Shown here: positions 53,124 through 54,746 of the stretch, in pieces
Layout of the letters: every line of letters starts with the position of its first letter
Numbering within the stretch: the stretch's first letter is position 1
Assembly: GCF_003259525.1 (NCBI RefSeq)
Contig: NZ_QLLO01000011.1
Span: forward strand, 1 to 64,000
Source: Olleya aquimaris
Lineage (GTDB): Bacteria > Bacteroidota > Bacteroidia > Flavobacteriales > Flavobacteriaceae
DNA length: 64,000 nucleotides
Direction: 5' to 3'
Position numbers and translations under genes: made by a program
The notes under the pieces: model-generated
The model's database searches: none
Seen by the model: the letters and a program-made list of their open reading frames with translations, nothing else
What the model was told of the DNA's origin: nothing

Positions 53124-54746
53124 CTAATTAGCATACATCTTTTCACGTAATTCTTTAATTTTAGGATCTTGCATATACTCGTCAAACGTAGTGTATCTGT
53201 CAATTACTCCATTAGGAGTTAACTCTACTACTCTATTAGCCACAGTTTGTGCAAACTCGTGGTCATGTGTTGTAAACAATACGGTACCTTTAAAGTTTTT
53301 AAGCGAATTATTAAACGCTGTGATACTCTCTAAGTCTAAATGGTTTGTTGGTTCGTCTAATTGTAAAACGTTTGCTCTAGTCATCATCATTCTAGATAAC
53401 ATACAACGTACTTTTTCTCCTCCAGATAAAACATTACATTTTTTAAGTGCTTCTTCACCACTAAAAATCATTTTCCCTAAAAAGCCTCTAATATGCACTT
53501 CTTCTCTTTCTTCTTCTGTTTTAGCCCATTGACGTAACCAATCCACTAAAGTCATGTCGTTACTTTCAAAAAACTTACTATTATCTAAAGGTAAGTAAGA
53601 TTGTGTGGTTGTTACTCCCCAAGAAAAAGTTCCAGAATCTGCTTTTAGGTTGTTATTTAAAATTTCGTAAAAAGCAGTTGTCGCTCTTGAGTCTCTAGAA
53701 AACAAGACAACTTTATCCCCTTTTTGAAGGTTTAAATCTATATCTTTAAACAACACCTCTCCATCTAAACTAGCAGAAAGACCTTCAACATTTAAAATTT
53801 GGTCACCTGCTTCTCTATCGCGTTCAAAAATAATAGCAGGATAACGACGACTAGTACGTCTAATATCTTCGATATTAAGTTTATCAATCATCTTTTTTCT
53901 ACTGGTAGCTTGTTTACTTTTTGCGACGTTAGCAGAAAAACGACGAATAAATTCTTCTAATTCTTTCTTTTTCTCTTCAGCTTTTTTGTTTTGTTGTGCA
54001 TGTTGTCTTGCTGCTAATTGCGACGACTCGTACCAAAAGGTATAATTACCAGAATAATGGTTGATTTTTCCAAAGTCAATATCGCTAATATGCGTACACA
54101 CTGCATCTAAAAAGTGTCTATCGTGAGAAACAACTATAACACAATTATCATAGTTAGCTAAAAAATTTTCTAACCAAGAAATGGTTTCGTAATCCAAGTC
54201 GTTGGTAGGCTCATCCATGATTAGTACATCTGGATTTCCAAAAAGTGCTTGTGCTAAAAGCACACGTACTTTTTGCTTACCATCTAAATCGCCCATTAAG
54301 GTATAATGCAAATCTTCTTTAATACCTAAATTAGACAGCATCGCAGCAGCATCGCTATCTGCATTCCAACCATTCATTTCTTCAAACTGCACTTGGAGTT
54401 CGCCAATTTTTTCAGCATTTTCATCTGTATAATCGGCGTATAATGCATCTATTTCTGACTTGATATCGTATAGTGGTTTATTACCTTTTAACACCGTTTC
54501 TAAAACGGTATCTGCATCATGTTTGTTGTGGTCTTGAGTTAAAACCGACATACGTTTACCTGGCTCTAAATGTACATGTCCAGATGTAGGCTCTATTTGA
54601 CCTGATATTATTTTTAAAAACGTTGATTTTCCAGCTCCATTGGCTCCAATAATCCCATAACAATTTCCGTTATTAAATGTGGTACTTACCTCATCAAAAA
54701 GCACACGCTTACCGAATTGAACTGATAAATTTGATACTGATAACAT
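53124..54746 (-). CDS. ABC-F family ATPase (YbiT/EttA-like) with one degenerate ATP site
   Basis: 540 residues, two ABC domains and the interdomain linker (about 240-305). Domain 1: Walker A GANGAGKS (34-41), Walker B DEPTND, but LDGKQK replaces the SGGQ-type signature. Domain 2: LSGGEK signature and LDEPTNHLD present, but FSRDSRATT (about 349-357) replaces the Walker A. In the folded dimer, site 1 (Walker A of domain 1 with signature of domain 2) is intact; site 2 is not. ABC-F proteins bind the ribosome E site; resistance versus housekeeping role cannot be told. Confidence 0.9.

Follow-up and report, generated by a model that had tools for sequence, protein, structure and literature searches.

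The window analyzed here is a 64,000-nucleotide stretch of DNA from Olleya aquimaris (contig NZ_QLLO01000011.1, positions 1 to 64,000), and its minus strand encodes an ATPase of the ABC-F family. Pfam profiles match PF00005 in two stretches of this 540-residue protein and PF12848 in its linker, all above cut-off, which is the domain architecture of an ABC-F protein; the same profile search found no membrane-domain family in it.

53124..54746, minus strand: ABC-F ATPase of the YbiT/YkpA branch, 540 amino acids, ATG start (open reading frame with profile, PDB, and tree evidence)
53841..54083, minus strand: inter-domain linker (PtIM, ABC_tran_Xtn), residues 222–302 (PF12848, 67.8 bits against a cut-off of 25.9)

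Around this gene, the minus strand at 56397-59730 carries a heavy-metal-associated domain protein (PF00403), a protein that by eye resembles a TonB-dependent receptor, and an open reading frame that starts with a GMTCNNCK metal-binding motif; together these genes look like a metal-handling cluster. On the plus strand, a 238-residue open reading frame at 52001-52717 has hydrophobic stretches near its C-terminal part, as judged by eye, and no Pfam match. Short taattagtgattag-type repeats were also seen by eye at 53000-53060, in the interval that separates the end of the ABC-F gene from the gene next to it.

Subfamily and distribution of the gene

Among 187 family models, the best match to the protein is the NCBIfam equivalog PRK15064, at 589.9 bits and below the curated cut-off of 762; the protein is placed in the YbiT/YkpA branch, outside that equivalog. 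Its top sequence match in the PDB is Escherichia coli YbiT (484 bits), followed by EttA (250 bits). A tree of ABC-F proteins separates 102 rows, among them E. coli YbiT and relatives from Bacillota, from 5 outgroup rows with an SH-aLRT value of 99. Because the window protein falls on the YbiT side, apart from paralogues of the EttA, Uup, and YheS types, it belongs to the YbiT/YkpA subfamily, a group to which Bacillus subtilis YkpA has also been assigned (in the available part of PMC6723617). Going by the linker family and the likeness to ribosome-bound YbiT, the protein may bind the ribosomal E site.

An AlphaFold model was built from 52 close rows, namely the window protein and 51 of 80 loci (the best 80 of 578 relatives). 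Met1 is absent from the window row, and numbering in the model therefore runs one behind the protein (n corresponds to n+1). Model quality is mediocre (mean pLDDT 75.3, pTM 0.46). On structural re-alignment, the chain that ranks highest is ribosome-bound EQ2-YbiT (9nlf, Z 25.9 over 445 residues), with a whole-chain rmsd of 21.2, which indicates that the domains match and their relative placement does not. Other ABC-F chains were recovered with whole-chain rmsd values near 20.

The O. aquimaris genome holds a single copy of the YbiT/YkpA-branch gene and three other ABC-F genes at 27–32% identity. The genome lies near Lacinutrix, whose genes among the best 80 of 578 relatives are 91–93% identical. 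One copy is present at E <= 1e-130 in 59 of 60 genomes of the family, the lone exception being a genome that is 82% complete. At E <= 1e-110, the gene is patchier in wider samples, with 54/99 genomes of the order, 103/149 of the class, and 57/198 of the phylum, and many genomes of other phylum families have no match at the threshold used (for example, 141 of the 198 in the phylum sample). Being near-universal in its own family and patchy in others, the gene seems dispensable over long times. One relative, L144, is titled Candidatus Rokubacteria and is 84% identical and of flavobacterial type; that bin is probably mislabelled or contaminated.

One canonical and one altered ATP site

For comparison across lineages, identical proteins were merged to give 275 distinct rows of the YbiT/YkpA branch. 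The family contributed 125, the remainder of the order 37, the remainder of the class (Bacteroidia) 80, and other parts of the phylum 10; Bacillota contributed 11, Fusobacteriota 3, Mycoplasmatota 2, Gammaproteobacteria 6, and Chlamydiota 1. The rows came from the best 80 of 578 relatives, from at most 30 matched loci per genome sample, and from 80 hand-chosen loci, mostly more distant. Rows from the best 80 of 578 were assigned to the family by identity, three of them standing under broader or odd titles (L094, L144, and L147), and plasmid rows of Bacteroides and Persicobacter are counted within the class. The outgroup rows are solely genes from plasmid records. Of 26 such rows 25 were kept, Gemmatirosa L318 being left out because the YheS-like paralogue matched it better (288 versus 272 bits). 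Two rows are incomplete: L313, from Limosilactobacillus, ends before signature 2, and L280 has no start. An EttA control comprised 50 distinct rows, taken from 75 matching genomes of 99.

In the ABC sandwich, the Walker A motif of one domain faces the signature motif of the other. With this geometry, site I (Walker A of domain 1 with signature 2) is complete in the window protein and site II (Walker A of domain 2 with signature 1) is not. The motifs of both sites, all on the minus strand, are as follows.

54714..54716, minus strand: site I A-loop aromatic, Phe11 of domain 1 (Phe or Tyr in 242/242 class rows)
54621..54647, minus strand: site I Walker A GANGAGKST, residues 34–42 of domain 1, intact (Lys40 in 274/274 readable branch rows)
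54534..54536, minus strand: site I Q-loop Gln71 (275/275 branch rows)
54207..54215, minus strand: site I Walker B Asp178-Glu179-Pro180 (Asp in 275/275, Glu in 274/274 readable)
54123..54125, minus strand: site I H-switch His208 (274/274 readable branch rows)
53412..53429, minus strand: site I signature LSGGEK, residues 440–445 of domain 2, intact (Ser-Gly-Gly in 274/274 readable)
54270..54287, minus strand: site II remnant signature LDGKQK, residues 154–159 of domain 1, non-canonical (class: Ser155 in 36/241, Gly157 in 0/241 readable)
53673..53699, minus strand: site II remodelled P-loop SRDSRATTA, residues 350–358 of domain 2, with Thr356 for Lys and Ala355 for Gly (Lys in 0/242 class rows)
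53586..53588, minus strand: site II Q-loop position, Leu387 for Gln (Gln in 3/242 class rows)
53766..53768, minus strand: site II A-loop position, Leu327 for Tyr/Phe (Phe, Tyr, or Trp in 11/237 readable class rows against 50/50 in EttA)
53349..53357, minus strand: site II Walker B Asp464-Glu465-Pro466, canonical here (Glu in 219/242 class rows)
53265..53267, minus strand: site II H-switch His494, canonical here (221/242 class rows)

Nine residues were scored per site (the A-loop aromatic, Walker A Lys, Q-loop Gln, Walker B Asp and Glu, H-switch His, and signature Ser-Gly-Gly), and in the window protein all nine are canonical at site I and four at site II. The original prediction held that domain 1 keeps Walker A without a signature and domain 2 a signature without Walker A, and the pairs GANGAGKST/LDGKQK and SRDSRATTA/LSGGEK bear this out. 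Its reasoning from composite-site geometry was also sound, as site II takes both losses and site I neither. Two further losses at site II add to those it named, the A-loop aromatic at 327 and the Q-loop Gln at 387. A Walker A that had merely shifted, which had been named as evidence against the idea, was ruled out: the sole G....GK[ST] of the protein is at residue 34 and the sole SGGE/SGGQ at 441, and no second G....GK[ST] occurs in the protein or when the same strand is read in its two other frames. At the motif columns, the genome's own EttA, YheS-like, and Uup paralogues align in clear register and have both sites intact. Copies with two intact sites, which had likewise been named as evidence against it, thus do exist in this genome, but only as members of other ABC-F subfamilies.

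As read from the alignment, the loss of key residues at site II is lineage-wide, being found in all relatives examined of the class, and the homologue comparison that the original prediction called for bears out its observation. At site I, all 2176 cells scored across the 242 distinct class rows (window included) are canonical; at site II, 910 of 2170 are. The 50 EttA rows from the same class score 428/450 and 450/450, respectively, and all 22 misses are at the domain 1 A-loop, where variation has been noted for ABC-F proteins (in the portion of PMC8782954 at hand). The split between the two sites is far beyond chance. Wherever readable in the 275 branch rows, the site I Lys, Gln, Ser-Gly-Gly, Asp, Glu, and His are invariant, and the only departure at this site is the A-loop of two Bacillota rows. 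At site II, position 356 is Thr in 127 class rows, Ile in 60, Val in 30, Leu in 10, Ala in 7, Met in 6, and Pro and Ser in 1 each, and is never charged. The glycine that precedes it is gone in 242/242 rows, the Q-loop Gln in 239/242, the A-loop aromatic in 226/237 readable, and, in signature 1, the second Gly in 241/241 readable and the Ser in 205/241. In place of a canonical P-loop, the strict motif S[KR][DN]xxA[TIV][TS] is present in 164/242 class rows; residue 351 is Lys or Arg in 217/242 and Asp or Glu in 14/242. Other parts of site II are kept in the class, namely Walker B Asp464 (234/241) and Glu465 (219/242), His494 (221/242), and the Walker A Thr/Ser at 357 (232/242). A fully dead site would not need these residues, and they speak against a site that was simply abandoned; they may hold in place the Walker B-D-loop segment that reaches site I.

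History of the loss and constraint on site II

The history of the loss was read from a tree of 107 rows from which the motif columns had been left out, with EttA, Uup, and YheS-like rows as the root. It is a quick tree with SH-aLRT support only. First on the branch are one Chlamydiota row, two rows of another phylum family, and gammaproteobacterial YbiT. In the nine early-branching rows, Walker A2, the Q-loop, and the A-loop are intact and signature 1 is non-canonical throughout; in the remaining 93 rows (SH-aLRT 99), Walker A2 is altered. With 34 of 104 inner branches open, loss counts are approximate, and parsimony gives six subsequent losses of Lys356, among them in the window's class and in Lactobacillaceae. 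Eight site I residues undergo no change on this tree, and at site II the signature Ser changes 25 times and the Walker B Glu and the His 11 times each.

The loss is graded, as judged from the motifs of the branch. E. coli YbiT (PDB 9njf, 9nlf, and others), which has its architecture and tree branch in common with the window protein, also has a non-canonical signature 1 (VAPGWK). However, YbiT and all 6 gammaproteobacterial rows keep the domain 2 Walker A, Q-loop, and A-loop, whereas the window protein has lost all three, so that only the signature side is affected in gammaproteobacterial YbiT. Bacillota and Fusobacteriota are intermediate. In Bacillota proteins of YkpA type and in Fusobacteriota, the domain 2 Walker A is altered as in the window protein, signature 1 is altered in 10/11 Bacillota rows, and the domain 2 A-loop aromatic is gone in 14/14 rows of the two phyla, but the P-loop lysine is kept in 4/11 Bacillota and 3/3 Fusobacteriota rows compared with 0/242 in the window's class. 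Peptoclostridium has LSGGEK as signature 1 and GENEIVNTT as Walker A2, and by such motif combinations signature 1 varies independently of Walker A2. Signature-only and Walker A-only losses mean that different lineages have lost different halves of the same composite site. In the Lactobacillaceae rows L304, L306, and L313, the lysine was lost separately on the tree and the loop reads SRN..AT, much like that of the window's class; such likeness after a separate loss hints at convergence on one replacement motif. A salt-bridge replacement between acidic residue 155 and basic residue 351 or 354 was considered and set aside, since a tree-aware pair test, underpowered at 7 independent pairs on starred branches, gave it no support.

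Site rates, computed with the A-loops left out of the column sets, set the two sites apart. In the class, the 20 site I columns evolve at 0.027 and the 20 site II columns at 0.613, against a protein mean of 0.616; among 20,000 random sets of 20 columns, none was as slow as site I, whereas 52% matched the slowness of site II. The Walker B (0.107) and His (0.268) columns of site II are slow. The family alone gives 0.083 for site I and 0.492 for site II (mean 0.841), and in EttA both sites are slow, at 0.163 and 0.174 against a mean of 0.998.

Pairwise dN/dS values, which are rough because dS between pairs is high (pS 0.61), were taken over 85 non-overlapping pairs and come to 0.041 for the gene. 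At site I, the Walker A, signature, Gln, and aromatic together give 0.007; at site II, the altered Walker A gives 0.050, the altered signature 0.032, and the positions of the Gln and the aromatic 0.139. Walker B and the His of site II, with 3 non-synonymous against 142 synonymous changes, are nearly as frozen as site I with its 0 against 65. When the pairs are limited to the 47 above 82% identity, the gene stands at 0.034, the altered Walker A at 0.027, the altered signature at 0.025, and site I at 0.008. The altered motifs are kept at gene-average constraint, neither free to vary nor as strict as a catalytic site, which argues for a remaining role and against neutral decay.

The original prediction had reached selection by another route, arguing that the complementary pattern of losses points to selection rather than random decay. 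That argument does not stand. Once a composite site is lost, both halves of it are free to change, so that decay of site II alone predicts the same pattern, and decay-compatible patterns are visible within the branch, in gammaproteobacterial rows that have lost the signature half only and in clostridial L299, which keeps LSGGEK and lacks the Walker A lysine. Purifying selection is present at the altered motifs all the same, but it is the dN/dS values that reveal it.

A putative single-site clamp and its alternatives

We think it fairly likely, from sequence evidence, that this housekeeping ABC-F translation factor is a single-site ATPase clamp in which site II now serves as a structural contact; the protein would then probably run on a single ATP. 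ABC-F proteins are described as clamps that bind the E site once closed on two ATP molecules and that leave the ribosome only after hydrolysis (according to passages of PMC11282234). Following this known biology, ATP in site I would close the two domains, the protein would enter the ribosomal E site, and hydrolysis at site I would release it. Site II would have lost hydrolysis and probably the ability to hold ATP too, and its remodelled P-loop and the opposed signature helix would form a structural contact between the domains, a role that would explain the average purifying selection there. The clamp may thus hinge open and shut at one side only. As for cellular function, B. subtilis YkpA/YbiT helps the translation of charged stretches (passages of PMC11381351).

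Mycobacterium tuberculosis EttA, in which the motifs are present and nucleotides are seen at both sites (part of PMC8782954), bears on why site II would be the one to be lost. In that protein NBS-I is fully closed on nucleotide and the NBD2 Q-loop of NBS-II is still away (same part). We take NBS-II of EttA to be equivalent to site II here, mapped through the NBD2 Q-loop. On that basis, site II is plausibly the dispensable one, and the window protein may represent this asymmetry taken to its end.

Several other readings must be weighed. Site II could bind ATP tightly without hydrolysing it, as a stationary pin of the kind seen in asymmetric ABC exporters, with only site I turning over. The degenerate site of Pdr5 lacks the Walker A lysine. 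Its affinity for MgATP is comparable to that of the canonical site (passages of PMC7756269), so the changes at site II might still allow ATP binding, a point that counts against a single-site protein; the same passages argue that, in exporters, a degenerate site keeps its MgATP and acts as a stationary hub. The persistence of Thr/Ser357, Asp464, and Glu465 in the class (232/242, 234/241, and 219/242) fits such a pin. We nevertheless regard it as unlikely, given that the P-loop Lys and its Gly (0/242 each), the Gln (3/242), and the aromatic (11/237) were lost together in the class.

Alternatively, the P-loop could have been rebuilt with a moved positive charge, Lys/Arg351 at the second loop position replacing the lysine and still holding phosphate or another ligand. 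A basic residue 351 in 217/242 rows, the strict motif in 164/242, and the SRN..AT loop of the three Lactobacillaceae rows with their separate lysine loss would agree with this. Residue 351 is Glu, however, in other lysine losses (Acetoanaerobium, Peptoclostridium, and Subdoligranulum) and Asp or Glu in 14/242 class rows, and the A-loop aromatic is gone, which makes a relocated charge quite improbable. Plain neutral decay of an unused site II with no role left seems more doubtful again: its 20 columns do evolve at the protein mean rate in the class (0.613 against 0.616), with the A-loop and Q-loop positions loosest (dN/dS 0.139), but dN/dS at the altered Walker A (0.050) and signature (0.032) is far below 1 and residue 356 is charged in 0/242 class rows. 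An artefact of misalignment, frameshift, or a pseudogene in one genome is refuted by the open frame, by one copy at E <= 1e-130 in 59/60 family genomes, by a site II lysine count of 0/242, and by paralogues that align cleanly.

The putative single-site clamp has analogues outside the ABC-F family. Degenerate composite sites are well known in ABC exporters, and in the asymmetric ones (the ABCC family, TAP, Pdr5, and ABCG5/G8) the non-canonical motifs from the two domains come together in a single composite site (passages of PMC7756269). The window protein shows this same clustered loss, with the other site intact. The exporters are membrane transporters, in which the commonest changes affect the signature and the Walker B Glu and the Walker A change in ABCG5/G8 is Lys to Arg (same passages); in contrast, the window protein is a soluble translation factor that has lost lysine, glycines, Gln, aromatic, and signature together. 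Degenerate exporter sites have been argued to have stayed under evolutionary pressure and gained a new role (PMC7756269, in part).

Within the ABC-F family, EttA resembles the window protein in fold, linker, and site I and differs in that both its sites are canonical. Each ABC-F domain has been said to carry consensus Walker motifs (2024, available part of PMC11282234). Two consensus sites are a usual property of the family rather than its criterion, and the window protein departs from it, with the site II lysine absent in 242/242 class rows. In the literature searched (few subscription journals, no bioRxiv), we found no description of a degenerate ATP site in YbiT/YkpA or any other ABC-F protein, and the available parts of PMC6723617, PMC8196190, and PMC12096078 do not mention one in YbiT/YkpA; a paper may accompany the 2025 E. 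coli YbiT depositions and discuss it.

A broader proposal, on which we are evenly divided, is that the whole class, and in graded form several other phyla, has ABC-F proteins that work on one ATP, NBS-II having disappeared as a whole and been remade into a clasp free of nucleotide, with S[KR][DN]xxA[TIV][TS] as its P-loop motif. If so, the two-ATP rule of ABC-F proteins would not hold. EttA with two canonical sites, gammaproteobacterial YbiT with a lost half-site, and the class with site II thoroughly altered form a natural series, one in which to ask directly which ATP is responsible for binding, which for release, and why both are usually retained. In a protein of this kind, the double Glu-to-Gln trap mutant may need just one change.
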